A DNA stretch of 64,000 bases from positions 1 to 64,000 of IMG/VR virus record IMGVR_UViG_3300030109_006070; one strand, written 5' to 3'. Made by a program: the position numbers and the translations under genes. This DNA is from a virus. Below are positions 8,568 to 51,398 of this stretch, one piece after another. Positions within the stretch are counted from its first letter, which is position 1; every line of letters starts with the position of its first letter. The notes beneath the pieces were generated by a model. The model saw only the letters and a program-made list of their open reading frames with translations, ran no database searches and had not been told where the DNA came from.

Positions 8568-10523
8568 ATGGCTAAAAGAAAATATACGAAGCGTTCTGAA
8601 TATTGGAACAAGTTTACTCATCCTTCACAAGTAGAGGGGCAAGAACCCTCTCCAGAACTTTTAGGAGAACCTTTTTATACTTCTGATGCATCTTATACTG
8701 CGACATCAGAAGCTAGAAGGCAGGATGCATCGACGGGTAAGTTTTCAGGCTCTCGGACCAATAGGGCGGCTTTTGTGACCCAAAAAGAAAGATACTCTAG
8801 TATTCGTAGGGGGCTACTGCCTTATGAGTATGCTGCTGACGGAGTGACTTGTAGAGACGCTATAGAGCTTTGTCAGAAAGCTTATTGTAATGTCGCTGTC
8901 TTTAGAAATGCCATAGATATTATGTCAGAGTTTACAAACACTGATATTTATTTAGAAGGAGGTAGCAGAAAAAGTAGAGAGTTCTTTTATGAATGGTTTA
9001 AAAGAATTAATATTATCGGTCTAAAAGATCAATATTTTAGAGAATACTATAGAAGCGGTAATATTTTCCTATACAGAATAGACGGCAAATTTAAAGCCGA
9101 CGATTACGCTAGGCTTATTAATCAAGTAGGATCAATCGGGGCTAACTCCAACAAAATACCCTTGAAGTATATTCTTCTGAACCCATATGATGTTATAGCT
9201 AGGAGATCCACTACTTTTACTTCTGGGGGAGTATACCAAAAAGTTTTATCTGAATATGAGATAGCCAGACTGGGTAGCCCTCAAACTGACGAAGATCTAG
9301 CTATATTTGAAGCCTTAGATGGAGATATCAAAGATTCTATCCAAAAAGGTTCTTACAGTAATAAAGGGATAAAAATAAATTTAGACCCCAAGAGATTATC
9401 TTACTCTTTCTATAAAAAACAAGATTATGAGCCATTTGCAGTTCCTTTCGGATTTCCAGTCTTAGAAGATATCAACGCTAAGATGGAATTAAAGAAAATG
9501 GACCAAGCGATTACAAGAACTGTAGAAAATGTAATCTTACTTATCACTATGGGTGCTGATCCAGAAAAAGGAGGAGTTAACCCAAACAACATGGCTGCTA
9601 TGCAAAACTTGTTTAAAAACGAGAGCGTAGGCAGAGTTTTAGTTTCTGATTATACAACTAAAGCAGAATTTATTATACCAGAGCTTAATTTGGTTTTGGG
9701 GCCTGAAAAGTATCAGATACTTAACGATGATATTAAGCAAGGTTTACAGAATATTGTAGTTGGCGAAGAGAAATTCAACTCTACCCAAGTCAAAGCTCAA
9801 ATCTTTATTGATAGACTACAAGAATCTAGATACGGGTTTTTAAATGATTTTTTAAATAAAGAAATCAAAAGGATTGCTAAAGATTTAGGTTTCCGCTCTT
9901 GGCCAGAAGCTAAAATGAAAGACATCGACATGAGAGATGAGGTTCAGCTTATGAGGGCATCCACTCGACTTATGGAGCTTGGCATCATTACCCCAGAGCA
10001 AGGAATGGAAATGTTCCACAATGGAAAGTTCCCAGAGCCAGACAAATTAGATTCTGCTCAACAAGACTTTTTAGAGGATCGAGAAAAAGGTTATTACAAT
10101 CCAATTGTAGGAGGTGTCCCAGTTTATTCTCCCGATGGCGCAGCCAAAGGACCAAAAAAAGAAGCTGGCAGACCAGAAGGGACTACAGATATTCCTTTAG
10201 CTAATGCTGCATATTCTAGGTCTAGCATACAAAAAACCATCTATAGTATTGATAGCTTTATTCATGATGCTAAAGATAAAATGGTATCTCATTTAGGCGT
10301 TTCAGAACTTAGCGAAGCTCAAGAAGAGATGGTATCAAATTTGTGCGAATCTATTGTTTGTTCTTATAATAAAGAATATTGGGACGAAACATTAGAATCG
10401 TGTGTAAAAGATTTTAACGAAATTGAAAATTTGCAAACTTTAAAAGAAGTTTTGGATATTTCAGCTCAACATACTTTAGAAACATACCCAGCCGCCATTT
10501 TATATCACAGCCATGAAAAATAG
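8568..10523 (+). CDS. Portal protein
   Basis: The portal is the twelve-subunit ring at the capsid vertex through which DNA enters and leaves. At 651 aa and directly downstream of the large terminase, the gene has the family's expected place and size. Recognisable portions include RNAIDIMSEFTNTDIYLEGG (about 115-135), the YYRSGNIFLYRI strand pair near 160-172, and ILLNPYDVIARRS near 200-212. The C-terminus (about 540-651) adds a helical extension. The stop codon overlaps the next gene by 11 bp. It probably has its own GTGTAA-type promoter. Confidence 0.9.
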   Translation: MAKRKYTKRSEYWNKFTHPSQVEGQEPSPELLGEPFYTSDASYTATSEARRQDASTGKFSGSRTNRAAFVTQKERYSSIRRGLLPYEYAADGVTCRDAIELCQKAYCNVAVFRNAIDIMSEFTNTDIYLEGGSRKSREFFYEWFKRINIIGLKDQYFREYYRSGNIFLYRIDGKFKADDYARLINQVGSIGANSNKIPLKYILLNPYDVIARRSTTFTSGGVYQKVLSEYEIARLGSPQTDEDLAIFEALDGDIKDSIQKGSYSNKGIKINLDPKRLSYSFYKKQDYEPFAVPFGFPVLEDINAKMELKKMDQAITRTVENVILLITMGADPEKGGVNPNNMAAMQNLFKNESVGRVLVSDYTTKAEFIIPELNLVLGPEKYQILNDDIKQGLQNIVVGEEKFNSTQVKAQIFIDRLQESRYGFLNDFLNKEIKRIAKDLGFRSWPEAKMKDIDMRDEVQLMRASTRLMELGIITPEQGMEMFHNGKFPEPDKLDSAQQDFLEDREKGYYNPIVGGVPVYSPDGAAKGPKKEAGRPEGTTDIPLANAAYSRSSIQKTIYSIDSFIHDAKDKMVSHLGVSELSEAQEEMVSNLCESIVCSYNKEYWDETLESCVKDFNEIENLQTLKEVLDISAQHTLETYPAAILYHSHEK

Positions 10524-10992: not shown

Positions 10993-11189
10993 AAGATAGC
11001 GACTTCCTTGATCCGAAGAGACGGTCTTTTCCTGTTTTATCTGCTCGGGATGTAAAAAATGCAGTAAGTAGCTGGGGTAGATATGAAGGCTCAATGAGTT
11101 TCGAAGAGTTTAAAAGTAAACTAACTCAAAGGGCTAAAAAAATTGGAGCAGAAAGCGCTCTACCTAAAAGCTGGATGGATAAAAAATAA
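10974..11189 (+). CDS. Downstream frame of the -1 frameshift; DUF6582-like domain
   Basis: Frame -1 relative to the preceding gene is open from 10974 to a TAA at 11187-11189 and encodes a well-formed domain starting KDSDFLDPKRRSFPV, continuing DVKNAVSSWGRYEG and ending KSWMDKK. This resembles the short domain (LxDPxRRSYPV, then a helical Ala/Lys segment) found in phage head and protease proteins. There is no ATG, GTG or TTG before the domain; the first in-frame ATG is too late. The stop overlaps the next start as TAATG, as in a coupled gene. Either ribosomes slip at the A9 run or the run is one base off in this assembly. Confidence 0.6.
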   Translation, partial: KKRSELKDSDFLDPKRRSFPVLSARDVKNAVSSWGRYEGSMSFEEFKSKLTQRAKKIGAESALPKSWMDKK

Positions 11190-12679
11190 TGGATTACAAA
11201 TACACTGCTACATTTGAAGCTCCTTTAATTCCTTGCGAAATAAATGAGGCTTCTTTAATTTCTAAGGCTTCTTTACAAAATTTAGAGCCTTTAGTCCCTA
11301 GTGATATAGATTACGACGAAAATGTAGATTTAATGGGTGTGGCTTTTAATGCTGCTGTAATTAACCAATTTAATAAAAATGGTGATGGGATGGATACATC
11401 TACAGCCTTAAAATATACTAATAAGTTTATTCATAAGCCTACAAATATAGAGCATGATAAACAAAAGGTTGTGGGGCATGTTGTTTCTGCTGGATACAGC
11501 AAGTTTGGTTCTAGCGAGTTAATGGGAGAAGAAGAGGTCAAAACTCTTAGAGAACCTTTTAACATTTCTTTGGGAGCTGTCTTATATAAAACAATTAATC
11601 CTAATTTTACTAATTTAGTAAAAAATTCTTTAGATTCAGAAAGTGATCAATATCAGAAGGTTTCCGCTAGTTGGGAAGTGGGATTCAATAGTTATGTTTT
11701 AGCTGTTGGAAGCGATAAGCTAAGTGAAGCTAGAATTATCTCTGACCCCGAAGAAATAGCTAAATTACAGGGTAATTTAAGGAGCTATGGAGGTAATGGG
11801 AAAACCGATAAGGGAGAAAAAATCAACAGGCTTATCATGGGAGATATATACCCATTAGGCATTGCTTACACCCTTAACCCAGCAGCCGATGTAAAAGGTT
11901 TATACTCTAAGCCCCCTGAAAAAACTCAAATTTTTATAAACGATAAGAGGGATAAAATTTCACAAAATAATAATTTAAATGTAAACAACCAAAAGAACAT
12001 CATTGATATGGAACTTGAAAATACTCTAAACGAACTGAAGGATCTTCTAAAGGAGAAGAAATTCTCTAAGGAGGCTGTTGCTTCCTTAACTGATACCTTT
12101 GCCGATGCGATCCGTCAGCGGGACGAACAATACCGTAACGATCTCGAAGCAGAGAAATTGCAGAAAGAAGATAAAATTAAAGAATACGAAGACCTCAAAG
12201 CTTCTGTGAAGGCGCTTGAGGAAAAGCTGGGTGCTGCTAGTGAGCGCATTTCTGGTTATGAAAACGAGGAGAAAGCTCAAAAGGCAATTGCTTCGTTTAA
12301 CTCTCGTATGGATTCAATTGATGAGAAATTCGAACTTGATGATCAAGATCGTGAGTTTCTCGCTTCTGAACTTAAAACTTTAGATGATGACGCTTCTTAC
12401 GAAGCTTTTGCTTCTAAGTTGGATGTTTTGTGGAAACATAAGAACAAAGAAGTTCAAGAAGAATTTAATTCTCAAATTCAAGCTCGTATTGATGAAGAAG
12501 TAGCTAAAAAGCTTTCTAACGCTTCTGTTGAAGAAGTAAAAATTGAAGAAGCTCTTGACGCTGCTGAAACAGTAGATGCAGAAGTCTCTAATGCAAATGA
12601 GGCTATCGCATCTGAAGAACCCTCTTTGCGTGATAAGTTCAAATCAGCTTTTTCACGCGATAACATTGAAATTTCTTAA
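11189..12679 (+). CDS. Prohead protease fused to scaffold protein
   Basis: The N-terminal ~240 residues look like a prohead maturation protease: IHKPTNIEHDKQKVVGHVVS (about 84-103), with a candidate catalytic His in NIEHD and a Ser in KVSASWEVGF near 160. Residues 274-496 are a different kind of protein: acidic, Ala/Glu/Lys-rich coiled coil, ending in SLRDKFKSAFSRDN, as expected of a scaffold. So one gene carries both roles, as in lambda C/Nu3. An in-frame ATG at 12008 (residue 274) could start a separate scaffold. Codon use changes near there to the C-rich style of the capsid genes. Confidence 0.7.
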   Translation: MDYKYTATFEAPLIPCEINEASLISKASLQNLEPLVPSDIDYDENVDLMGVAFNAAVINQFNKNGDGMDTSTALKYTNKFIHKPTNIEHDKQKVVGHVVSAGYSKFGSSELMGEEEVKTLREPFNISLGAVLYKTINPNFTNLVKNSLDSESDQYQKVSASWEVGFNSYVLAVGSDKLSEARIISDPEEIAKLQGNLRSYGGNGKTDKGEKINRLIMGDIYPLGIAYTLNPAADVKGLYSKPPEKTQIFINDKRDKISQNNNLNVNNQKNIIDMELENTLNELKDLLKEKKFSKEAVASLTDTFADAIRQRDEQYRNDLEAEKLQKEDKIKEYEDLKASVKALEEKLGAASERISGYENEEKAQKAIASFNSRMDSIDEKFELDDQDREFLASELKTLDDDASYEAFASKLDVLWKHKNKEVQEEFNSQIQARIDEEVAKKLSNASVEEVKIEEALDAAETVDAEVSNANEAIASEEPSLRDKFKSAFSRDNIEIS

Positions 12680-13388: not shown

Positions 13389-14534
13389 ATGAAAATTACT
13401 TTAAAAAGAACTCCAGAACAAGTCGAGCTTGTAAAAGCTATGGCTTCTCGTAACCGCACTGTGGCATACGAGGCTCAAGTAGCACTTGCTGAATTTATCG
13501 GACCAGTTTTGGCCGAGGTTCTCAACAATGCTCCTACTGTAAGCAACCTTTTCAATTCGCTTCAATTTGATGCGGATGATAACCCAAGCATCCCGCTTGA
13601 TCTTTACTACGACATTTCTGACGAAGATTACGTCAGAGTGTGGAGTCAGAGTCATGCAGGTGGTCTTCCAAGTAACCAAGTGCTTCCTACAGCTTCCGAG
13701 CTTAAGTTAGCTACTTACACTCTTGATGCCGCCGTTGATTTTGATCGCCGTTACGCAGCAAAGAGCCGCATGGATGTGGTTGGGAAAACTTTTACTCGCG
13801 TTGCACAAGAGATCCTTCTTAAGCAAGAGCGCACTTCCGCTACTCTTCTTATGACTTCACTTGCTGGCGCTTCGATTAACAGCTCCCCACTATTTGAAGA
13901 CAAGCAGATCTTCAGGACTGTCACCGCAGACACTGTTCTTATTGATGACTTCAATAAGCTCATGACTCTTGCGAAGCGCATCAACACTTCTTGGATTGGT
14001 GGAACTCCCACTACTCGTACTCGCGGTATCACTGATATCGTCTGTTCTCCAGAGGTTGTTGGAAGCATTCGTGCGATGGCTTACAACCCTGTAAACACCA
14101 CTGCTGTCCCTGACACAACTGAATCTACAGTTCTTGCAGCTCCTGAACAGCTCCGTAACGAGCTTTATCAGAACGCAGGTCTTGATAGCTTCATGGGTGT
14201 TAACATCTTGGAATTTAACGAGATGGGTAAAGGACAGAAGTTCAACACTATCTTCGACACTGCTGCTGGAACTGCTAGCTACAAGACATTTGATCTTGCT
14301 AGAGCTAACCAGTTTAATGGCACATCTGACGAAATTATCGTTGGTGTTGATCGTACTCGCGATTCACTCATGCGCGTTGTTGCTACTGATCCAGATAGCA
14401 GCAGTGAGCTTAACCTAATCGCAGATGACCAGTATAGCGTTCGTCAGAACAAGATTGGTTACTACGGTCAGCTTGAGGAAGGACGAGTTGTCCTTGACAA
14501 CCGTGTCCTCATGGGACTTATCAAGGGTCAGTAA
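13389..14534 (+). CDS. Major capsid protein
   Basis: A 381-aa protein in the expected position after protease/scaffold and decoration genes. The N-terminal helix (residues about 6-40) is followed by the N-arm and strand IPLDLYYDISDEDYVRVWSQ, then an alpha/beta core (VGKTFTRVAQEILLKQERT, SPEVVGSIRAMAYNP) compatible with the HK97 fold. The last 40 residues (DQYSVRQNKIGYYGQLEEGRVV) form a strand-rich tail. Codon use is the most biased in the window, as expected of the most abundant protein. A strong terminator follows. The exact family within HK97-like capsids cannot be fixed by eye. Confidence 0.88.
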   Translation: MKITLKRTPEQVELVKAMASRNRTVAYEAQVALAEFIGPVLAEVLNNAPTVSNLFNSLQFDADDNPSIPLDLYYDISDEDYVRVWSQSHAGGLPSNQVLPTASELKLATYTLDAAVDFDRRYAAKSRMDVVGKTFTRVAQEILLKQERTSATLLMTSLAGASINSSPLFEDKQIFRTVTADTVLIDDFNKLMTLAKRINTSWIGGTPTTRTRGITDIVCSPEVVGSIRAMAYNPVNTTAVPDTTESTVLAAPEQLRNELYQNAGLDSFMGVNILEFNEMGKGQKFNTIFDTAAGTASYKTFDLARANQFNGTSDEIIVGVDRTRDSLMRVVATDPDSSSELNLIADDQYSVRQNKIGYYGQLEEGRVVLDNRVLMGLIKGQ

Positions 14535-21206: not shown

Positions 21207-24200
21207 ATGCCAATTCAAGTACCAGTCACACAAACAGGATTAGAAGCCAGCATTGACGCTGCCGCTAAACGTGCGGGTAAAAATCTTAAGATAAATTTAG
21301 GCTCAAGCGCCAAAAGTATTGAGGGTTTGTCCCAGCCTCTTGGCCGAATCACTGGTAAAGCAGATCAGTTTACTAAATCAATGGAGGCGGCTAACGCCCG
21401 TGTGTTAGCGTTCGGAGCTTCTGTTGGTGTCTTGTCAGCAGTCACAAGAGGATTTCAAGATTTAGTCAGAACTACTATCGATGTAGAGAAACGGTTGACG
21501 AGTATCAACTCAATACTTGGTGCTAGCGCTAAACAATTAGATTCATTCAAAAAAACAATTTTTGATGTAGCTAAAAACACAGAGCAATCTTTTGCCGTGG
21601 TTGCAGACGCTGCATTAGAATTAAGTCGTCAAGGTCTAGAAACCGAACAAGTTGTTAAAAGATTAAATGACTCTTTGATTTTATCTCGTTTGTCTGGATT
21701 GGGAGCCGCTGAAGCTGTTGCTGGTTTAACCGCTGCTATTAACTCTTTCAACAAAGAGGGTGTCACTAGTGCTCAAGTTCTCAACAAATTGTCTGCGGCA
21801 GCGGTTTCGGCTGCGGTTTCAGAAAGAGATCTTATCGAAGGTATCAAGCGTTCTGGTTCGGTTGCTATCCAAGCTGGTGTTTCATTTGATGAATTAGTCG
21901 GTGTTATCACAGCGGTGCAAACAAAGACTGCCCGAGGCGGTGCTGTTATTGGTAACTCCTTCAAGACGATTTTCACTCGTATACAAAGTTTGGACAAACT
22001 GCAAACCATGCAGAATCTTGGCGTTGAAATCACAGATTTGTCAGGGAATGTATTAAGTGGTACAAAGTTAATAGAAAATTTAGCAAAAGCTCTTTCTGAT
22101 GTGCCTGACGCAAGACGGCTACAGATAGCAGAAAACCTAGTTGGTAAATTCCAAGTCGCCCCATTCTTGGCTATTTTAGATGATTATAATTCTAAAACTT
22201 CTAGAGCAATAGAGGTTACTGCGATTTCTCAAAAAGCAACAACAGAAGCTTACGAACGAAACAAAGCTTTAAATGAAACATTAGCCGCAGCGATAAACTC
22301 TACAGTCGTGAGCGTTCAAGAGCTGGCTGAAACATTAGGAAAAATAGGTGTTACTGATAATTTAAAAGGTATTATTTCTTTTTTCAATAATTTAGTTTCT
22401 GGTTTACAAGATATTTTAGATGGAGATGGAATAGGCAGTAAGTTCGCTAAAGGAATTGTCGCTGGTATAGGTAATGTTATTAGCGGTCCTGGGTTAGCTA
22501 TATTTGGAGCAATTATTGCCAAGCTTACTTTTGATTTAGCTAAGTTCGGAGTCGGATCTTTGAATACGTTCTTCGGTCTAAACAGAGCGGCGAAAGAACA
22601 AGCGACCTTACAGGGGCAAATAGCTTCTACTCTTCTCGGCAATTCTGATATCCAAAAAAGAATTTTAGCTATAGAGAATTCACAACTCTCAACAGAACAA
22701 AAAAAAGCAGCTCAAACAAAGTTCTTCACAACCGCTTTAAACGAACAATTGGCGGTAATGACTCGTATGCAGCAGATTTCTGCTAGGGTAACTCCTGGAG
22801 TTTTTGCTGGGACAAGAGGAGGTAGAGGAGGAAGAGCCGCTGGAGGATTTATTCCTAACTATAATTCTGTTCTTGGTTATGGCTCTGAACAGGCAGATAT
22901 AAATCGTGGAGTGGGGGGAGCGCCAAGTTCAGCAAAACCCGTTGCTATACCTAACTTTAATTTTGGTGGTGGCCGAAAAGGGACAATGGTGGCTAATAGT
23001 AGTGAGTTCATGGTTCCTAATTTTGCGGGAACTGGAGGCTCTGCTATATTTAATCAAGATATGATTGCTTCTATGGGTCTTCCATCTGGAGCGAAAAAGG
23101 TTGGCGCGGCTGGAGGATATATTCCTAATTTTGCTAAAAGCAAAATGCCCAACAGAGTAGACGCTTCTTCTTACTTTTATTTAGTTCCAAATATGAACGT
23201 AAGAGGTAAACCTCTAGGCGAGAGAACTGTGGATGGACAAAAAATTGGAGGAGGCATAGCGTATGGTTTAAAAAGAGACCAAGTAGCTAAAGTTTCAGAC
23301 GGAGAAGAAAACCTTTTATCGAAGAATATAAGTTCTTCTATTTTTAAAAATACAACAGCTTTTATACAAAAATTAAAACCTTTAGGTAGAGATGTAAGCC
23401 AAAGTCAAATAGAAGAAGGATTTGATACGACAAGAGGAGCGAAAGGAGCTTTAAGAGGAGCGATAGGAGCGGCCTTTGAAGTCGGCATCACTAAAGCTCT
23501 TGATTACAAAGCGGCTATAAGAGAAAAAGGAGGAGACTTTGATGTAAGAGGTGGTGTTAATTTAGACAGAGTGCGTCAACTATTTGGATTTCCATTTAAT
23601 CAAAATACGGGAGATTTAAAAGTAGGTATAAGTCCAGACAATGTTATAAGTTTTTATAAAAAAGTAATAAAAGAAAGAAGAGCTGGCGTTTTTGGCGTAA
23701 AAGAAAAAAAAGCCAACCAAAGGTTATTAGCCACTCAAGAGGTAAGGAGACAGAGACCAGATCTTTTTAAAGCAGGAACTAATACCCCCTTGTTCCAAAC
23801 AAGAAATCAAGCAGAAGCCTTAATAAAAGAAAGACTTCCCTCAATAGGAAGAAGGTTTAATTTCGCTGGTGGATATATACCAAACTTCGCCGCGCCTTTA
23901 CAAGAGGCGATAGCAAGAGAGTCTGCCGCAGGTCTTCCAGTTAGTCAGATAAGAATTAATCAAGATGCATCTCTAAGAAATAGCGCCAACCCAATGGGTC
24001 TAGCTGTCACTAATACAAGAGACGAGCCTACAGGAGCTATACCTAATTTCGCTAAAACTGCTACCCCCGCGCAAGCGAATGATGCTATGGGTGGATTTGT
24101 AGGAAAGTTGCTAGCTGTCCAAGTCGGATTTGCTGCTCTAAGCGGAGTATTGGGTCAAGTCACAAATCAAAACAAAGCTCTGGCTATAGGTTTAAATACA

Positions 24201-27200
24201 TTAAATGTAGCGGTCAGCGCCGCTTTTGCTGCTCAAGCTTTTGGGGGTTTCGGAAAGAGTATTGGAGGCATTACTTCATTTGCAAGAGGAGGACTAGGGA
24301 GAGGGATAGCGGGACAAGGTTTCAAAGATATGCTCGCTGCACAACAATTAGGAGGGATGAGCGTGAAAGCCAACAGGGGTAATACTTTACGCGCTGGAGG
24401 TAAATTCGTTGGAGGTTCAGCTTTAGCTATCGCTGGTCCTTTGGTGGCGGGGACGGCGGCGGCGGTGGGTCTGGCTACAGCTTTTAATGCTCTACAGGGA
24501 ACGACTAAAATTCTTAATAAGTCTCAAGAGAGAGTAGCATCTTCAGCTTCAAAAGCGGCAGCGGTACTAGGAGGATTACAAGCCGATGAAGATGCGAAGG
24601 ATAGATTTGTAGATAGTAGGTCTGGAGCAGGGGAAGCTATAGCTACAAAATTTTTAGATAAGACTTTAGTCAGTGGGCTTTTTGAAGAAGGCAAACAGTT
24701 CAAAAATCTTTCTACTGCAATTGACACAGCGTTACAAAGAGGCGCTACCGAGTCAGAAATAGATAAGCTTTTGACTGGACTCAAAGAAGAAACAGGAACA
24801 GACTTTTTCAATCTTAAATTAGGAAAAGGAGGGGGTATAGGATTTGGAAATATTACAACTATCGATAGTAATGAGTTATCTGAATTAAGTAAAGTAATTT
24901 CTCGTTTAGGAGAGGCTGATCTCGGTAAGCGATTCAAAGATATAACCGAAGGTTTAACTGAAGAACAAAGACAAGGTTTGATATCTGGAGATGCAGCCAC
25001 GATTGCACAAGTAACCAAGCAAACAGGGGAGGGTGGTAAAACACAATTAAGCCAAGATGCTATAAAGTTGCTAGGGGCAGATTTAAAAGCTGTAGAAGCG
25101 GAAAGAGATAAGACTATTGAAAAAGAAAAGCAGAAAAGAATAGATCAAATAAGATCTGACGTAGCTAAATCACAGCTTTCTTCAGAAATAAATTTAGCTA
25201 AAATAAGAGCAGAGGCTATCTCTAGGGATGAAATAACCCTAAAAAGAAATGAATTTTTAAATAATCTTAGTGAAGTTCAAAAACAACAAATACAACAAAG
25301 AATTTCTCTGAAACAAATAGAGAGCGATATAGACGGAAAAATTGCAGATACACTAGTCAAGCAAATTGAAAATATCGAAAACCTAACTTTGGATTCAGAA
25401 AAGCAAACAGAGCTTAGAGATAAGTTGGCTAAATTGTCTTTAGAAGAGTTAGCTTCTCAAGAAAAAGTTAAAGAAGTTTTAGGTGATATATTTGATTTAT
25501 CTAAAAGAACACCTAAAGAACAAGAGGCTCTTCGTAAAGGTATAGATGGCGGTGTAGCTGCATTAAGAGCCGAAAGAAAATTAAGAAAAGAGAATTTAAA
25601 ACTTTCTACTGATGTAGGAATAGCTGATGCTAAGAGAGCGCAAGATCTTGCTTCCGCGATATCTGCGGCGAGAAGAGAGAATCTAGATAGTTCTAGAACT
25701 AGAGAGTTTGATAGGGTTGGAAGATTAGGTCAAATACAATTAGAAAGAGGAACATTAAATCCAAACTTATCTCCTACCGCTAGAGCAAGAGCGGAAACAG
25801 GATTTGTAGCTAGAGAGGGAGAAATTGCTGTACAAGCGGCAGAAGATAAAGCTGTAGATGAGACAAAAGAAGCAATAATAGAGCTTTCTAATGAGATGAA
25901 AAACAAAAATCTTAAAAAAGAATTCGAAGGTCTCTTAGAAGTGTTAAAATTGTTTGGTCCTGATGTATTAGGACCAGTTAGAGTTAGATTGGCAACAATA
26001 GCAGAAGAAGCTTTTATATCTGGAGAGAAGTCAGACAGAATACCTCTACCAGATTCGGTTTTTATGACTCAACCTCAAAAAGATAAATTAAAAGATGAAG
26101 CCAACGAAGTCAAACAAAGAGAAAGGAGCGTAAAAGGCGCGAAGGATCAAAGAGATATTAATAATGAGTTAGCTGAATCTCAAGAAAGAGTAGCAGATGG
26201 ATTTAAGTCTTACAGTATTCTATTAAGAGATTTTACAATAAGCTTGAGGCAGCAAGCCGAACAATTAAAAGTAGATTTAATTACAGCGCGAGATGGTGCT
26301 GCTATTTTATCTAATATAAACGAACAGTTATTTACTAATCAAGCTAGAGGGGGTGGCGCTCGCGGGACCGCTAATGCTGCTACAGAGGCAGCTCTTACAG
26401 GATTGAGAGATCAAGCGTTTTTAGCTGGATCTAGCAGAGAAGCTAGAGGGTTTACTAGACAAATAGATATAGTTAGAGAGCAGCTCACGCTAAAAGCAAA
26501 ATTTGTTGAATTACAAAAAGATGAAGTAGCGAATGAAAAAGAGTTAGGAATACTTAAACAACAAATTCTAGAATTAGAAAAACAAAGATTAGAGGTCAAC
26601 GATAGTCTCACTGCGAAACTGGAAGATGCTTTCTTGTTTTCAGAAAAAGACATACAAAACAAATTAACCGACAACTTGGTTTCTGGTGCTAGAGAATTTG
26701 CCACCACAATCGGTGACGGTATGGCTGACGCTATAGCAAAAGGTGAAAACTTAGGAGATATTCTTCGTCAAGCAGCCGCAGACTTTTTCCTAGGGCAAGC
26801 TAAAAGTCAGTTTGGGGCAGGTCTTGATCGAATAACATCAACATTATTCCGTAATAGTGGTGGCCCTGTAGTCGGAGGCTCGGGGGCTAGAGATGATGTG
26901 CCAGCTCTTTTGACAGGGGGAGAATATGTCATGAGAAAAAGCGCTGTCCAAAAATTTGGACCTAGATTTATGGAGGCTATAAATTCTGGTCAGATTCCAG
27001 CTTTTAATAGGGGAGGTTTATTTACCCCAGGGACATTCGGGCAGGGAGCAATGCGTGGCAAACGGTCATTATTAGATTTCGCTACTCAATCATTTACTAC
27101 GGGAGCGATGGACACAATTTCAGGGGGAGCAGGATTTGCATCTATTGCTCTAGAACCTCAAAGCGCGGCTCTCACAATGTTTGGAAGGAGAAATAGTCCT

Positions 27201-27836
27201 CAATTCCAAAGAGAGCAAGCTTCCAAAAATAAAGCCTTTGACCTTTACAAGAGACAAATAGATAAAGAGAAACAAGCAAGAGAGAGTGGTTCGGGTCTTA
27301 GTTCAATATTAAAAAATTCTTTATTAGCTTTTGGCGTTGGATCTTTATTTAATATGGGAACAGCAGGATTAGGTGGCAAAGGGAGCGCACCTAGAGGCAT
27401 ACCTGTTAATCCAGACGGGACAGACATGAACTTCTTACAAAGGTTGATGTTGCCATTTAAAAGAGCTACTGGAGGAGCCATTCCTTATGCGGCAGGAATT
27501 GATACTGTGCCCACTATGTTATCAGGGGGAGAGTTTATTATGAATGCAGCCGCCACACAGAGAGTAGGAAGGGGAACCCTTTCTTCTATAAATTCTGGAG
27601 GTGGAGGAGGAGGTAATGGAGAGGTTATAGGAAGACTGGATGAGTTAATTTCTGTTTCAGAAAATAGCGGAGAAACAACTATAAACATTACTGTAAATTC
27701 TGATGGCTCATCAAGTGAAGGTGGAAACGGGAGCGAAGAAGAAACAAATCTAGCCACTAGGATAAGAGATGTAGTTAAGCAGGTTATTGATGATGAGAAG
27801 AGGCTAGGGGGATCTTTAAGACAAGCTAGAGCATAA
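21207..27836 (+). CDS. Tail tape measure protein with embedded nuclease-like domain
   Basis: At 2209 aa it sets tail length, about 330 nm at the usual ratio. The N-terminal ~450 residues carry a tape-measure core (VEKRLTSINSILGASAKQLD, then SFKTIFTRIQSLDK near 250-265) and a hydrophobic segment near 420-440. Residues about 540-950 hold six copies of an AGG(Y/F)IPNFA-type motif. Between copies lies a domain with GAAFE (about 754), GDFDV (775) and GDLKVG (801), the order of PD-(D/E)XK nucleases. Residues 1290-1850 are coiled coil. The C-terminus has two VPALLTGGEYVM/VPTMLSGGEFIM repeats typical of the family. The next gene starts at TAATG. Confidence 0.9.
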   Translation: MPIQVPVTQTGLEASIDAAAKRAGKNLKINLGSSAKSIEGLSQPLGRITGKADQFTKSMEAANARVLAFGASVGVLSAVTRGFQDLVRTTIDVEKRLTSINSILGASAKQLDSFKKTIFDVAKNTEQSFAVVADAALELSRQGLETEQVVKRLNDSLILSRLSGLGAAEAVAGLTAAINSFNKEGVTSAQVLNKLSAAAVSAAVSERDLIEGIKRSGSVAIQAGVSFDELVGVITAVQTKTARGGAVIGNSFKTIFTRIQSLDKLQTMQNLGVEITDLSGNVLSGTKLIENLAKALSDVPDARRLQIAENLVGKFQVAPFLAILDDYNSKTSRAIEVTAISQKATTEAYERNKALNETLAAAINSTVVSVQELAETLGKIGVTDNLKGIISFFNNLVSGLQDILDGDGIGSKFAKGIVAGIGNVISGPGLAIFGAIIAKLTFDLAKFGVGSLNTFFGLNRAAKEQATLQGQIASTLLGNSDIQKRILAIENSQLSTEQKKAAQTKFFTTALNEQLAVMTRMQQISARVTPGVFAGTRGGRGGRAAGGFIPNYNSVLGYGSEQADINRGVGGAPSSAKPVAIPNFNFGGGRKGTMVANSSEFMVPNFAGTGGSAIFNQDMIASMGLPSGAKKVGAAGGYIPNFAKSKMPNRVDASSYFYLVPNMNVRGKPLGERTVDGQKIGGGIAYGLKRDQVAKVSDGEENLLSKNISSSIFKNTTAFIQKLKPLGRDVSQSQIEEGFDTTRGAKGALRGAIGAAFEVGITKALDYKAAIREKGGDFDVRGGVNLDRVRQLFGFPFNQNTGDLKVGISPDNVISFYKKVIKERRAGVFGVKEKKANQRLLATQEVRRQRPDLFKAGTNTPLFQTRNQAEALIKERLPSIGRRFNFAGGYIPNFAAPLQEAIARESAAGLPVSQIRINQDASLRNSANPMGLAVTNTRDEPTGAIPNFAKTATPAQANDAMGGFVGKLLAVQVGFAALSGVLGQVTNQNKALAIGLNTLNVAVSAAFAAQAFGGFGKSIGGITSFARGGLGRGIAGQGFKDMLAAQQLGGMSVKANRGNTLRAGGKFVGGSALAIAGPLVAGTAAAVGLATAFNALQGTTKILNKSQERVASSASKAAAVLGGLQADEDAKDRFVDSRSGAGEAIATKFLDKTLVSGLFEEGKQFKNLSTAIDTALQRGATESEIDKLLTGLKEETGTDFFNLKLGKGGGIGFGNITTIDSNELSELSKVISRLGEADLGKRFKDITEGLTEEQRQGLISGDAATIAQVTKQTGEGGKTQLSQDAIKLLGADLKAVEAERDKTIEKEKQKRIDQIRSDVAKSQLSSEINLAKIRAEAISRDEITLKRNEFLNNLSEVQKQQIQQRISLKQIESDIDGKIADTLVKQIENIENLTLDSEKQTELRDKLAKLSLEELASQEKVKEVLGDIFDLSKRTPKEQEALRKGIDGGVAALRAERKLRKENLKLSTDVGIADAKRAQDLASAISAARRENLDSSRTREFDRVGRLGQIQLERGTLNPNLSPTARARAETGFVAREGEIAVQAAEDKAVDETKEAIIELSNEMKNKNLKKEFEGLLEVLKLFGPDVLGPVRVRLATIAEEAFISGEKSDRIPLPDSVFMTQPQKDKLKDEANEVKQRERSVKGAKDQRDINNELAESQERVADGFKSYSILLRDFTISLRQQAEQLKVDLITARDGAAILSNINEQLFTNQARGGGARGTANAATEAALTGLRDQAFLAGSSREARGFTRQIDIVREQLTLKAKFVELQKDEVANEKELGILKQQILELEKQRLEVNDSLTAKLEDAFLFSEKDIQNKLTDNLVSGAREFATTIGDGMADAIAKGENLGDILRQAAADFFLGQAKSQFGAGLDRITSTLFRNSGGPVVGGSGARDDVPALLTGGEYVMRKSAVQKFGPRFMEAINSGQIPAFNRGGLFTPGTFGQGAMRGKRSLLDFATQSFTTGAMDTISGGAGFASIALEPQSAALTMFGRRNSPQFQREQASKNKAFDLYKRQIDKEKQARESGSGLSSILKNSLLAFGVGSLFNMGTAGLGGKGSAPRGIPVNPDGTDMNFLQRLMLPFKRATGGAIPYAAGIDTVPTMLSGGEFIMNAAATQRVGRGTLSSINSGGGGGGNGEVIGRLDELISVSENSGETTINITVNSDGSSSEGGNGSEEETNLATRIRDVVKQVIDDEKRLGGSLRQARA
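22836..24062 (+). repeat. IPNFA-motif repeats inside the tape measure
   Basis: Six dispersed copies of AxGG(Y/F)IPN(F/Y)A or shorter forms: GGFIPNY near 22845, AIPNFNF near 22943, MVPNFAG near 23010, GGYIPNFAKS near 23110, GGYIPNFAAP near 23868 and GAIPNFAKT near 24033. They flank the nuclease-like domain and a segment ending in NPMGLAVTNTRDEP. Confidence 0.7.
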
Positions 27837-46844: not shown

Positions 46845-47561
46845 ATGACATTCTTAATTCCTTGCGCTGGTTTAGGCGCTAGATTCCATTCTAAAATCCC
46901 CAAGCCTCTTATTGAGGTTCTAGATGGTCGCCCGATGCTTGAGCTTGTATTAGAAAACTTAAGACAGCGAGAGGATGATCGGTTTATCTGCTGTATTCTC
47001 AAAGAACATGATTTAAAATTTAATCTTTCTCAAGAAATTAAAAAGTTTGCTCCTTATGTAGACATTTGCGTTGTAGAAAAACTAAAAGATGGCCCAGCTT
47101 CTACTTGTTATGAGGCGAAAGATCTAGTAGATCAGGACGATGAATTAATCATTATAAACTGCGATCAAATTATCGAAGATTTTAATATCGAGGCGTTTTT
47201 AAGATTTGCTCATTCACACGATTATGACGGCGTTTTAGGAACATTCTTTTCTCGCTCTCCTAAAAACAGTTATGTTAAATTAAACGATGACGGCCTTGTC
47301 GTCGAAGCTCAAGAGAAAAAAGTATTGAGCGAATACGCGACAAATGGGCTACATTATTGGAAGAAAACTTCCTATTTCTTTGATTCTTATCGTGTTATGG
47401 TCGAAAAAAACGCTCGCACTTTAAATGAATTTTATGTAGCTCCTTCATATAATTATTTAATTAATGATGGAAAAAGAATTGGAGCTTATCACTTTAACGA
47501 GCATTATCCAATTGGAATACCAAGTGATTTAAATTATTATAAAAACTTTAAAACAAAATGA
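46845..47561 (+). CDS. Sugar-phosphate nucleotidyltransferase
   Basis: A 238-aa single-domain enzyme that joins NTP and sugar phosphate. FLIPCAGLGARFHSKIPKPLIEV (3-25) shows the G-x-G-x-R-F and KPLIEV motifs. LIIINCDQIIEDFNIEAFL near 102-120 has the metal-binding D-Q. VVEAQEKKVLSEYATNGLHYW near 147-167 parallels VTEVAEKNPISDIATVGIYYW in the upstream fusion, so the two are tandem paralogues. It overlaps the RuBisCO-like gene by 4 bp, placing the two in one translational unit. Confidence 0.85.
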   Translation: MTFLIPCAGLGARFHSKIPKPLIEVLDGRPMLELVLENLRQREDDRFICCILKEHDLKFNLSQEIKKFAPYVDICVVEKLKDGPASTCYEAKDLVDQDDELIIINCDQIIEDFNIEAFLRFAHSHDYDGVLGTFFSRSPKNSYVKLNDDGLVVEAQEKKVLSEYATNGLHYWKKTSYFFDSYRVMVEKNARTLNEFYVAPSYNYLINDGKRIGAYHFNEHYPIGIPSDLNYYKNFKTK

Positions 47562-48760
47562 AAAGCTTATTTAGAGACAAAGTGGACGAAAACAAATATT
47601 ACATCGCCACCTATCACCTTAAGTCCTCTCCTTCTTCGACTTTACGCGAAGCTGCATTTAATTTGGCAGTAGGCCAATCGATTGGAAACCCTGCGAAACG
47701 AGCAGAAATGGAAACGGAAGAAATGTTTGAAAATCATGCTTGTATTGTTTTAGCTGATGAATCCGAACTAGAAAAGAAAGTGGAAGGTGATGTTTCTATT
47801 GCATTCCCTGAAGCAAATATTGATTTTGCCACAGACGGTATTTCTCAATTACTTGTGCAAACAATGGGGGGGCAGATGGATATTGACGTAATCGAAAAAT
47901 GTAGGATGCTTGATATTAAATTTACACCTACTATGCTATCGTGCCTTAAGGGTCCAATTATTGGACTTAAAGAAATTAAAGAGCACTGCAAAATTCCTGA
48001 TGATCAGGTAATTTTAGGAGGAATTACTAAGCCTAAAATTGGTCTTACTCCTGAATTACATTTAGAGCTAGTGAAAAGACTTGTCGATGGAGGTTGTAAC
48101 TTTATTAAAGAAGATGAAATCTTATCGGGAGCTGCTCACTGCCCACTAGAAAAAAGAGTTGAGCTAGTATCTAACTATTTAGCGAATTGCGGATCTCCTG
48201 TATTTTATTGTGTTTCCATCCATTCAGACCCCGCTTATTTGCTTAAGCGTGTCCAACAAGTATATGACTTAGGAGGTAACGGAATTCATGTAAATTTTCA
48301 TTGCGGCCTCGGAGCTTATAAATCGATAAGGGAGACTGAATTACCTCTTTTGATGCATTACCAAAAAAGCGGAGATAGAGTATTAAACCATCATTCTCAT
48401 CGCTACAGCATTGAACCCTCTTTGATGTTTAAGCTTGTTTCGTTATCTGGCTGCGGAACCCTTCACGCAGGTATGATTGGAGGCTATCTTGAAAGCGGAG
48501 ATGAAGAAGTTAAAAATATAATGTCAATTCTTAACTCTCAAAATTCAGTTCCAGCTTTGAGCTGTGGTATGCACCCAGGTTTAGTTAAACATATCCAAAA
48601 AACTGTAGGCCATGCTAACTGGATGGCCAATGTTGGAGGAGCAATAACTTCGCACCCTATGGGGACTGCCGCAGGAGCAAGAGCAATGAAACAAGCAATA
48701 ACAGAAGATTACGGCAAAGAGTTTGGTGTCGCAGCCACGAAATGGGGAATTGAAATGTGA
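47558..48760 (+). CDS. RuBisCO-like protein (form IV)
   Basis: A 400-aa protein with the RuBisCO large-subunit layout. TKPKIGLTPE (157-166) holds Lys158/Lys160, equal to Lys175/Lys177 of spinach RuBisCO. IKEDE (183-187) holds the carbamylation Lys184 and metal ligands Asp186/Glu187 (Lys201, Asp203, Glu204). HAG (303-305) matches His327. Loop 6, MIGGYLES, has Tyr310 where catalytic Lys334 should be. SCGMH (335-339) and VGGAITSHPMG (359-369) match the phosphate loops, with Ala for the third Gly. So it should bind Mg and a phosphorylated sugar and enolise it, but not fix CO2. It overlaps a nucleotidyltransferase gene and precedes a cupin. Substrate unknown. Confidence 0.9.
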   Translation: MKSLFRDKVDENKYYIATYHLKSSPSSTLREAAFNLAVGQSIGNPAKRAEMETEEMFENHACIVLADESELEKKVEGDVSIAFPEANIDFATDGISQLLVQTMGGQMDIDVIEKCRMLDIKFTPTMLSCLKGPIIGLKEIKEHCKIPDDQVILGGITKPKIGLTPELHLELVKRLVDGGCNFIKEDEILSGAAHCPLEKRVELVSNYLANCGSPVFYCVSIHSDPAYLLKRVQQVYDLGGNGIHVNFHCGLGAYKSIRETELPLLMHYQKSGDRVLNHHSHRYSIEPSLMFKLVSLSGCGTLHAGMIGGYLESGDEEVKNIMSILNSQNSVPALSCGMHPGLVKHIQKTVGHANWMANVGGAITSHPMGTAAGARAMKQAITEDYGKEFGVAATKWGIEM

Positions 48761-48773
48761 GGTTAATATAATT

Positions 48774-49097
48774 ATGAAACTTTTAGATATAGAAGAAATG
48801 AAAGGGGGCTGGTTTGTCGGAGACTTTGATCCCAGCGCTTATAAAACAAAAGATTTTGAGGTAGGATATAAATTCCACAAAAAGGGCGAGCCTTGGGATA
48901 AGCACTATCATGAAAAATGCACTGAAATTAATTTTTTGATGAAAGGGGTGATGAAGATGCGCGGTCAAATCTTAAAGAGTGGCCAAATATTCATCATGGA
49001 ACCTTTTGAGGTAGCTGATCCCGAGTTCATCGAAGATTGTCATGTAGTTGTTGTCAAAACTAATAGTGAAAAAGGAGACAAAATTTGTGTCGAATGA
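48774..49097 (+). CDS. Cupin-domain protein
   Basis: From the ATG at 48774 the product is 107 aa. A single cupin fold is suggested by KHYHEKCTEINFLMKGVMKM (about 42-61), with H-x-H-x(3)-T-E metal ligands, and GQIFIMEPFEVADPEFIED (about 70-88), the second cupin strand pair, followed by CHVVVVKT. Such small cupins are often sugar isomerases, lyases or regulators. GAGG lies about 12 bp before the ATG. It lies just after the RuBisCO-like gene, so it could act on the same metabolite. Exact role unknown. Confidence 0.7.
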   Translation: MKLLDIEEMKGGWFVGDFDPSAYKTKDFEVGYKFHKKGEPWDKHYHEKCTEINFLMKGVMKMRGQILKSGQIFIMEPFEVADPEFIEDCHVVVVKTNSEKGDKICVE

Positions 49098-49510
49098 TTG
49101 TAATATCACACAGAGGAAACTTATCTGGCAAAGACCCAGACAACGAAAATAGGCCCGAACAAATTTATAAAGTTTTAAATTTGGGTTACCACTGTGAAGT
49201 AGATATTTGGAAAAAAGACGGAGCTTTCTACTTGGGCCATGATGAACCCATGTATGAAATAGACTCAAATTTATTGAGCAATAAAAATTTGTGGATTCAC
49301 GCTAAAAATCTAGAAGCTTTGCACTCTTTGCCGACAAGCTTAAGATATTTTTGGCATCAAACAGACGACTACACTTTAACATCTGATAATTTTATTTGGA
49401 CTTTCCCCGACAAAGAAATTTGCGAAAGGTCAATCATTGTTGATAATAACAAAAACTGGAAAGATAAAAACTATAAATGTTTAGGTGTTTGCACTGATTG
49501 GGTTTTATGA
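49094..49510 (+). CDS. GDPD/PI-PLC-like phosphodiesterase, short
   Basis: Start at ATG 49094, overlapping the cupin stop (ATGA). MIVISHRGNLSGKDPDNENR (1-20) matches the phosphodiesterase beginning HRGx(10)EN. CEVDIWKKDGAFYLGHDEPM (about 36-55) supplies the E-x-D and the HD catalytic pair. At 138 aa only part of the usual TIM barrel is present, so it may be a compact enzyme or a remnant. It could hydrolyse a phosphodiester such as glycerophosphodiester or a polymer linkage. It overlaps the next gene. Confidence 0.65.
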   Translation: MIVISHRGNLSGKDPDNENRPEQIYKVLNLGYHCEVDIWKKDGAFYLGHDEPMYEIDSNLLSNKNLWIHAKNLEALHSLPTSLRYFWHQTDDYTLTSDNFIWTFPDKEICERSIIVDNNKNWKDKNYKCLGVCTDWVL

Positions 49511-50352
49511 AAAAAATTGTTGTTACGGGAGGAGCGGGATTTGTTGGCTCTCATTTATGTAAAAAATTGGTGGATTTAGGTCATCATGTTACATCAATTG
49601 ATAATTATTCGACAGGATCTTTTAACAATCATGTAACAGGAGCTTTTTATTTTAACCGAGATATTTCTAATATGAAGGAAATTTCGGGACTCTTTGAGAA
49701 TGTAGATGTTGTTTTTCATTTGGCTGCTCTTGCTCGTATACAGCCCTCTTTTCATTTTCCCTCTGAATACTTTCAGTCAAACGTGCAGGGGACTTTTAAT
49801 TTATGTGAAATTTGCAAAAAAAATAATATTTCCATAATTTTTTCAGGTTCTTCCTCCCACCATAGCGGTAAGTTTAAAAATCCTTATACGTTCATGAAAG
49901 ACGTTTCCGAGGAAATGCTGATTTTGTATCATAAAATATATGGCCTAAATCAATCTATCGCTAGATTTTATAATGTTTATGGCCCGAATCACATAGAAGT
50001 CGGTGAATATTCTACAGTTATAGCTAGATGGGATAAAGCTCATAGAGAAAAAAAATCAATTACTATTTATGGGGACGGGAGCAAGGAAAGAGATTTTACT
50101 CATGTCGAAGATATTGTAGAAGGATTAATTAAAATATGGCAAACTCAAAGCTATGGGCACACTTTTGAATTAGGCAGAGGTAGAAAATTTTCTTTAAAGG
50201 AAGTTGCGGAGATGTATAGACCTTCTTTTGGAATTGTATATGAACCAGACAAAAAAGGAGAAGCGCAAAGCGTTCTGTGCGATAGCTCTTTAGCGAAGCA
50301 AATCTTGAACTGGGAACCTAGATTTAATTTAGAAGATTGGATTTTAAAATGA
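49507..50352 (+). CDS. NAD-dependent nucleotide-sugar epimerase/dehydratase
   Basis: An extended short-chain dehydrogenase of 281 aa, ATG at 49507 overlapping the previous stop. KKIVVTGGAGFVGSHLCKKL (about 2-21) binds NAD with GxxGxxG. YFQSNVQGTFNLCE and FSGSSSHHSG precede the catalytic YTFMK (YxxxK). RFYNVYGPNH, then DGSKERDFTHVEDIVEGL, complete the family pattern. It acts on the sugar of a nucleotide sugar as 4-epimerase or 4,6-dehydratase. Which reaction cannot be told from these motifs. Confidence 0.87.
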   Translation: MKKIVVTGGAGFVGSHLCKKLVDLGHHVTSIDNYSTGSFNNHVTGAFYFNRDISNMKEISGLFENVDVVFHLAALARIQPSFHFPSEYFQSNVQGTFNLCEICKKNNISIIFSGSSSHHSGKFKNPYTFMKDVSEEMLILYHKIYGLNQSIARFYNVYGPNHIEVGEYSTVIARWDKAHREKKSITIYGDGSKERDFTHVEDIVEGLIKIWQTQSYGHTFELGRGRKFSLKEVAEMYRPSFGIVYEPDKKGEAQSVLCDSSLAKQILNWEPRFNLEDWILK

Positions 50353-51398
50353 AAAAAATTATTATTACAGGAGTAACGGGTCAAGATGGTAGCCTTATGG
50401 CAGACTATCTTTTAAAAAACACAAAACACACAATTATTGGTGGAGCTAGGAGGCTTAGTGTTAAAAATCACAAAAATATCAAACATCTGGAAGACAATGA
50501 AAGATTTTTTCTTATAGACCTCGATGTAACAGACCCTCAAAATACAGACAGGGTTTTGGCTGAACATAAGCCTGATTATTTTATTAATTTTGCGGCCAAC
50601 TCTTTTGTAGGTAGCAGTTGGGAAATGCCGACTCAACACATGCAAACAAATGCGATGGCTGTATTGCATCAGCTAGAGGCCATTCGTAGACACGCTCCGA
50701 AGTGCCGATATTACAACGCTGGTAGCTCTGAAGAGTTTGGTGATGTTGTAGAGTCTCCACAGACAGAATCTCATCCACTGCGCCCTAGAAGCCCATATGG
50801 AGCCTCTAAATGCGCCGCTAGACATTTAGTTAAAGTCTATAGAGATTCTTACAATATTTACGCTGTACAAGGCTTTTTATTTAATCATGAAGGAGTCAGA
50901 AGGGGGGAAGAGTTCGTTACTCGTAAAATTACTAAAAATGTAGCTAGAATTCTCGTAGAGTATGAAACAGGACAAGTTACAAAACCACTAGAATTGGGTA
51001 ATCTTGACTCCAAAAGAGATTGGAGCGATGCAGAAGATTTCGTAAGAGGTATATGGCTGATGCTCAATCAAAACAGAGAAAACGCAAAAGATTATGTTTT
51101 ATCTTCTAATGAAACGCATACAATTAGAGAATTTGTAGAAGAAGCTTTCAACTTTGCTGGTTTTCATAGGAGCATCTGTCGATGGGACGGTGAAGGTTTA
51201 GAAGAAAAATACTTTCATGGTCGTGACCTTCTTGTAGAAATTAATAAAGACTTTTACAGACCAGCGGAAGTTGATTTATTGTGGGGAGACTCTAAAAAAG
51301 CTCGCGAAGAGCTTGGTTGGGAACCTAAAACCTCTTTTGTCCAATTGATCAAAAAAATGATTGACGTAGATGTGGCGGCGGTTTACCCTTACCCGTGA
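50349..51398 (+). CDS. gmd: GDP-mannose 4,6-dehydratase
   Basis: From the ATG at 50349: TGVTGQDGS (7-15) is the characteristic Gly-rich loop of GMD. SPYGASK (148-154) gives the catalytic Tyr150/Lys154, with SSEEFGD (126-132) as the substrate acid segment. GFLFNHEGVRRGEEFVTRKI near 173-192 is the GMD signature, and NLDSKRDWSDAEDFVRGIW completes it. The enzyme makes GDP-4-keto-6-deoxymannose, the start for fucose, rhamnose or perosamine-type sugars. No second step (reductase/aminotransferase) is obvious nearby except the SDR upstream. It overlaps the next gene by 4 bp. Confidence 0.93.
   Translation: MKKIIITGVTGQDGSLMADYLLKNTKHTIIGGARRLSVKNHKNIKHLEDNERFFLIDLDVTDPQNTDRVLAEHKPDYFINFAANSFVGSSWEMPTQHMQTNAMAVLHQLEAIRRHAPKCRYYNAGSSEEFGDVVESPQTESHPLRPRSPYGASKCAARHLVKVYRDSYNIYAVQGFLFNHEGVRRGEEFVTRKITKNVARILVEYETGQVTKPLELGNLDSKRDWSDAEDFVRGIWLMLNQNRENAKDYVLSSNETHTIREFVEEAFNFAGFHRSICRWDGEGLEEKYFHGRDLLVEINKDFYRPAEVDLLWGDSKKAREELGWEPKTSFVQLIKKMIDVDVAAVYPYP

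Follow-up and report, generated by a model that had tools for sequence, protein, structure and literature searches.

A RuBisCO-like protein of a mainly phage-carried clade, its nucleotidyltransferase cassette and a proposed role in glycan precursor synthesis

What use a phage has for a protein of the RuBisCO superfamily, encoded amid genes for sugar activation, is the question raised by one open reading frame in a stretch of viral DNA of 64,000 nucleotides (positions 1 to 64,000 of IMG/VR virus record IMGVR_UViG_3300030109_006070, itself 72 kb; this stretch is termed the window). A first-pass annotation had taken its product for a RuBisCO-like protein (RLP) that does not carboxylate and that belongs to a phage pathway for an unusual sugar phosphate, and had proposed HMM searches, a phylogeny and a structure model, all of which were carried out here. 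RuBisCO fold, RLP concept and viral rbcL genes are already known. The literature search, which covered open papers and left aside preprints, gave no paper tying an RLP to a nucleotidyltransferase, and no account of the residue pattern, viral scale or nucleotidyltransferase cassette described below.

The protein and its branch of the superfamily

The strand opposite the reading frame is full of stops, and its start ATG sits within the stop of the preceding nucleotidyltransferase gene, in an ATGA (47558-47561) that is the 4-bp overlap claimed at first pass. Both Pfam domains, RuBisCO_large (2.7e-30) and RuBisCO_large_N (1.4e-5), are recognized above cut-off, and by sequence the PDB offers a type III-like RuBisCO (6.5e-25) and MtnW (1.6e-22). 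An AlphaFold2 model from an alignment of 29 relatives (pLDDT 90.9, pTM 0.90) is closest in Foldseek comparison with the PDB to the type III RuBisCO 3a12 (E 1.5e-30, TM 0.86), with MtnW and other RLPs next. Together with a metal site corresponding to K201/D203/E204, these results bear out the initial assignment: the product is a full-length RuBisCO-superfamily protein, with the fold's two domains and its C-terminal TIM barrel. Three collections of viral reference data hold no relative: INPHARED gave no tblastn match, PHROGs has no family for it, and the BFVD viral structures yielded generic barrels only (TM at most 0.42).

Table 1. Coordinates in the window of the RLP gene, its active-site codons and the neighbouring cassette genes
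Feature	Position	Strand	Basis or correspondence
HAD-IA phosphatase fused to second nucleotidyltransferase, 452 aa	45482..46840	+	Pfam HAD_2 2e-32, NTP_transferase 4.9e-14
Stand-alone sugar-type nucleotidyltransferase, 238 aa	46845..47561	+	Pfam NTP_transferase 2.1e-13; most constant RLP neighbour
RuBisCO-like protein (RLP), 400 aa	47558..48760	+	ATG to TGA; Pfam, PDB, AlphaFold2, tree, residue alignment
Codons K158-P159-K160	48029..48037	+	RuBisCO K175/K177, enolisation lysines; 119/119; coordinates from residue numbers
Codons K184-E185-D186-E187	48107..48118	+	Lys201 (carbamate), 202, Asp203, Glu204 metal site; 119/119
Codons Q269-K270	48362..48367	+	At RuBisCO H294-R295; Q269 invariant
Codon Y310	48485..48487	+	At loop-6 K334; 119/119
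Small cupin, 107 aa, HxHx4E metal motif	48774..49097	+	phrog_24762 1.2e-31; alignment
Short GDPD-like protein, 138 aa	49094..49510	+	Catalytic set H6 R7 E18 E35 D37 H49 intact; PDB GDPD 7e0v 1.6e-4
NAD-dependent sugar epimerase/dehydratase (SDR)	49507..50352	+	Pfam Epimerase 5.4e-44
GDP-mannose 4,6-dehydratase-like SDR	50349..51398	+	Pfam GDP_Man_Dehyd 2.5e-105

That Pfam and general RuBisCO models match might be thought to favor a RuBisCO that fixes carbon, present in the phage as an auxiliary metabolic gene (AMG), the reading given to viral 'rbcL' by several surveys. However, the protein falls below all the curated RuBisCO, MtnW and OiaX cut-offs of NCBIfam, with 153.6 bits against the 497 set for type III RuBisCO (TIGR03326), 92.6 against 513.6 for MtnW (TIGR03332), and 113 bits (1.3e-32) against 700 for OiaX (NF042437). 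In an IQ-TREE phylogeny of 89 proteins, constructed without IV-Photo and IV-GOS references, it forms with 27 phage and 19 cellular relatives a single clade (support 100/99) apart from forms I, II and III (together 100/96), from the MtnW group (100/98) and from the group of OiaX and other RLPs (100/100). The cellular members are intermingled with those from phages, so that exchange between the two has been repeated. By clade placement, model cut-off and residue set alike the protein lies outside forms I-III; as a RuBisCO homologue without carboxylation residues it would count as a form IV RLP, and by model score and clade position it is neither an MtnW (IV-YkrW) nor an OiaX. The clade may be the IV-GOS group, which the literature searched gives by name only (PMC10173188), or may be drawn from GOS homologues of the kind of which PMC1821046 places 65 outside the known forms. 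Those marine metagenomic RLPs without known function probably overlap the clade, and the accessible text of the two papers links them neither to phages nor to a nucleotidyltransferase cassette.

Active-site residues: enolisation and carboxylation

Among 119 distinct clade sequences, K158, K160, K184, E185, D186, E187, Q269, M306 and Y310 are unchanged throughout, as are S335, C336, G337 and G360 in all 118 sequences that cover them. In RuBisCO numbering the clade thus keeps K175, K177, K201, D203, E204, S379, G381 and G403, with G404 in nearly all members. These residues, H327 in the main subclass, and the fold (TM 0.86-0.88) are shared with archaeal type III RuBisCO (3a12, 2d69/2cwx), in comparison with which the RLP is shorter, is about 23% identical, and has E60 replaced by G39, T65 by N44, N123 by G105, H294 by Q269, R295 by K270, loop-6 K334 by Y310 and G380 by C336. 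All the residues named at first pass were correctly placed (the lysine pair, the metal site, Y310, and an alanine, A362, at G405 in the window protein), but the changes at E60, T65, N123, H294, R295 and G380, also clade-wide, had been missed. Four of the positions, E60, N123, H294 and K334, are G, G, Q and Y in 119/119, and position 295 is K in 96 sequences, S in 22 and R in one. With those four replaced throughout, carboxylation is, to judge from the residues, almost surely absent, as had been supposed.

Loss of several RuBisCO catalytic residues would also suit a catalytically dead fold retained as a decoy, a scaffold or an inhibitor of host metabolism. This is highly improbable, given that the metal and enolisation residues are invariant in 119 divergent sequences and that the gene has an operon link to enzymes in phages and cells alike. 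A further argument comes from positions 106 and 303, which are reciprocally swapped: 90 sequences have Q/H, the other 29 have H/Q, and there are zero exceptions; a swap so perfect implies a constrained, working site. RuBisCO N123 extends into the active site of the adjoining subunit, and since its position is adjacent to 106, a contact between subunits is a reasonable guess, by analogy, for the 106/303 pair. The 29 loci of the H106/Q303 subclass (all within L199-L255, e.g. L199 and L226), 22 of which also have S270/A273, possibly act on a different substrate, and their exact swap falls at the position of RuBisCO H327. On residue evidence, the overall pattern is that of a working metal enzyme, with the enolisation machinery retained and that for carboxylation lost.

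Having lost both H294 and N123, the site is unlike that of every characterised RLP in the comparison. One of the known systems close to it is OiaX with its relatives from plasmids and Pseudomonadota genomes, which have the same fold and metal site and act on sugar-derived phosphates. OiaX is itself an RLP, its model finds the window protein despite the shortfall in bits, and OiaX RLPs also decarboxylate, so that isomerisation is not the sole chemistry open to the fold; a decarboxylase or oxygenase with a 3-oxo sugar acid phosphate as its substrate could in this way give an unusual branched or shortened sugar. However, the OiaX group keeps H294 and K334 and has lost K177, the reverse of what is found here; the clades are separate, and OiaX and several other plasmid RLPs have four-carbon acid sugar kinases as neighbors, not nucleotidyltransferases, with no such kinase next to the present gene. 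Activity of the OiaX type is accordingly ranked below isomerase or epimerase chemistry, and is considered unlikely though well worth keeping in mind.

The cassette and its versions without RLP

The claim that a pathway, and not a stray gene, is involved held up well. Distinct viral loci with complete flanks number 87, and 83 of them have a nucleotidyltransferase gene no more than 3 kb from that of the RLP and on its strand; so do 13 of 14 cellular loci, those of Elusimicrobia, Azospirillum and Legionella included. Within the same distance a cupin is found in 71/87 viral and 4/14 cellular loci, and a GDPD-like gene in 65/87 and 9/14. The median gap between RLP and neighbor is -4 bp, and in the window ATGA overlaps recur between cupin and GDPD (49094-49097) and between GDPD and epimerase (49507-49510). 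The usual order is nucleotidyltransferase - cupin - RLP - GDPD-like, the window having instead RLP - cupin - GDPD. Mirror-tree comparison with RLP (Spearman) gives 0.61 for both nucleotidyltransferase and cupin, but 0.03 for GDPD, 0.12 for a glycosyltransferase-like family and 0.08 for SDR; the core is then RLP, nucleotidyltransferase and cupin, with GDPD, whose candidacy as a core partner is thereby weakened, a frequent companion. The short GDPD-like protein, about half a barrel in length, is nevertheless a candidate GDPD, its catalytic residues being invariant in the alignment. Farther out are glycosyltransferases, FkbM methyltransferases, epimerases and DegT aminotransferases.

The model of the nucleotidyltransferase (pLDDT 96) has its best fold match in the NDP-sugar pyrophosphorylase 4evw (TM 0.84), with UDP-glucose, GlmU and RmlA-type enzymes also near, and a sugar 1-phosphate-like substrate is likely on this structural resemblance. 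A related possibility is that the cassette yields a nucleotide-activated phospho-alcohol, such as a CDP-polyol, and no true NDP-sugar, with RLP making a polyol or tetrose phosphate precursor. It draws on the GDPD-like gene usually near RLP and on Legionella, where the RLP-nucleotidyltransferase pair adjoins a divergent LicD-like gene; LicD enzymes are phospho-alcohol transferases. It is at odds with the sugar-1-phosphate character of the nucleotidyltransferase fold and with the lack of co-evolution between GDPD and RLP, and LicD-like genes, confined to Legionella among all the loci, were rejected as general RLP partners. The possibility thus appears improbable, though to no extreme degree. Stealth-type phosphotransferases were sought at the RLP loci and none was found. 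The Legionella arrangement itself is kept in three species (L080, L081, L082), and a role in surface phospho-decoration is possible for it.

An RLP, a HAD phosphatase and a cupin found together could also recall the gene types MtnW, MtnX and MtnD, i.e. a methionine-salvage enolase with its phosphatase and dioxygenase. MtnW (2,3-diketo-5-methylthiopentyl-1-phosphate enolase) does share fold, metal site and want of carboxylation with the RLP, but the latter is outside the MtnW branch and far below its cut-off, has Gly where MtnW (4nas) has Lys at the N123 position, and keeps K177, which MtnW has lost. The cupin, of about 107 aa, has no acireductone dioxygenase match in Pfam, there are no mtn genes near, and a nucleotidyltransferase is the constant partner. 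A salvage enolase is accordingly very unlikely.

Cassettes that share the nucleotidyltransferase, cupin and GDPD families, are sited in glycan clusters, and have RpiB or HAD but no RLP are instructive. The cultured cyanophages SynMITS9220M01 and Bellamy have homologues of the window's cupin after a fusion of the nucleotidyltransferase to RpiB, a sugar-phosphate isomerase domain (PF02502, 4.1e-33), and next to these are genes for a HAD phosphatase and for a kinase with weak resemblance to PfkB; S-CAM9, DSL-LC03 and B23 have a HAD-nucleotidyltransferase with GDPD, and the fusion in the Synechococcus phages DSL-LC03 and B23 is 53-55% identical to the product of the first gene in Table 1. In IMG/VR, cupin cassettes without RLP mostly have a nucleotidyltransferase of about 370 aa with a C-terminal HAD domain, and those with RLP the stand-alone form of about 240 aa. 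A count over 54 distinct cupin loci puts the HAD-fused form at none of the 30 with RLP and at 17 of the 24 without (Fisher p 7e-9), a mutual exclusivity that also speaks for a pathway. With HAD and RpiB as alternatives on the same genes, RLP is seen as one of several interchangeable modules on a nucleotidyltransferase-cupin chassis. The simpler notion that RLP replaces RpiB was rejected, as RpiB is present at three loci only and HAD is the commoner alternative. The 'phosphoheptose isomerase' next to GDPD in S-SM2 (L259:5693-6004 and 7334-7663; 103 and 109 aa) was read as a small HAD-type protein, the label being probably wrong, and was excluded from the evidence.

Carriers, published viral rbcL and a proposed function

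TerL, UvsX, DnaB, RNR and DNA polymerase genes on the contig match phage families, so that the RLP is phage-borne, as the first-pass annotation had it. The phage is of a divergent, uncharted lineage: its UvsX-like protein is no more than 23-26% identical to those of INPHARED phages, and genes at the expected portal, protease/scaffold and capsid positions (8568-10523, 11189-12679, 13389-14534) have no PHROG match. A 2209-aa protein with repeated GG(Y/F)IPN(F/Y) motifs (21207-27836) is probably the tail tape measure.

The first-pass remark that phage RLPs were not known to have been described needs correction. IMG/VR yielded 59 RLP loci on initial scanning and, with an alignment-based scan, 345 confirmed viral stretches with the clade, which is large and mainly viral, and viral 'rbcL' had been reported before. 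The same scan with alignments of forms I, II and III found none, though with short conserved patterns, which divergent RuBisCOs may escape, and without a true-RuBisCO positive control. Of 40 host contigs examined, 16 have T4-type capsid genes and 15 have terminase, the rest being fragments or too divergent. Cellular copies are present in 2 of 297 SAR11 genomes searched, a number on which SAR11 was rejected as the main host reservoir, in 4 of 22 Legionella genomes, and in Nanoarchaeia/Pacearchaeota, Elusimicrobia, Azospirillum and others. SAR11 also has the cassette in a second version (L067-L072), on a separate tree branch, with nucleotidyltransferases on either side of RLP, plus GDPD. At least one 'bacterial' RLP, on a contig of a Sphingobacteriales MAG (L078), has neighbors that match phage-cassette families, and the contig is probably misbinned phage.

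Viral rbcL AMGs have been read as carbon fixation in landfill (PMC12607003), the Great Salt Lake (PMC8506154) and an estuary (PMC13390420), and in the first of these viral rbcL groups with 'RbcL-like' proteins and is present in IMG/VR. From mine soils a viral rbcL is reported to be active when expressed together with rbcS (PMC12615777); activity with rbcS points to a true RuBisCO distinct from the present clade, and true viral RuBisCO may then exist elsewhere. These published genes are, like the present one, of the RuBisCO family and on viral contigs, but the RLP clade is without the carboxylation residues. For the window gene a carbon-fixing role, with the curated score far under its threshold, the four residues replaced throughout, a glycan cassette and no Calvin-cycle genes around it, and no form I-III match in the scan, is the least credible of the readings considered. 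The 'rbcL' calls in IMG/VR (L179-L258) are probably mostly of the non-carboxylating clade.

With a sugar-activating gene almost always adjacent, an unusual sugar building block is probable and CO2 fixation is not. We think it rather probable that the RLP is a non-carboxylating enolising enzyme that feeds an NDP-linked glycan precursor via the nucleotidyltransferase. The Lys-carbamate/Mg2+ site (K184, D186, E187), with K158 and K160, would enolise a phosphorylated sugar or polyol ketone, an unusual sugar phosphate being plausible as substrate, and reprotonation of the enediolate would make the enzyme most likely an isomerase or epimerase. The cupin and/or the HAD phosphatase, where present, may process the product, the adjacent nucleotidyltransferase would activate that or a downstream product to the NDP-linked precursor, and phage glycosyltransferases could attach the activated unit to a glycan on the virion or host surface. 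A counterpoint to the isomerase reading is that what most often takes the place of RLP is a HAD domain and no isomerase.

With slightly less assurance, yet still on the favored side, the broader proposal is of a reaction new to the superfamily: an isomerase or epimerase working by enolisation would be dedicated to an NDP-activated glycan precursor, phages would be the main agents of its spread and diversification, some cells (SAR11, Legionella, DPANN archaea) would share it through exchange, and many environmental viral 'rbcL' genes taken for carbon fixation would encode the same enzyme. The constancy of the nucleotidyltransferase pairing opens the substrate question to direct in vitro reconstitution, and calls of carbon fixation made from viral 'rbcL' should be checked anew against the clade. 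If the proposal is true, the RuBisCO superfamily would gain a reaction and a role in nucleotide-sugar biosynthesis, phages would be major carriers of one of its branches, and the recurrent carbon-fixation reading of viral rbcL would be corrected.
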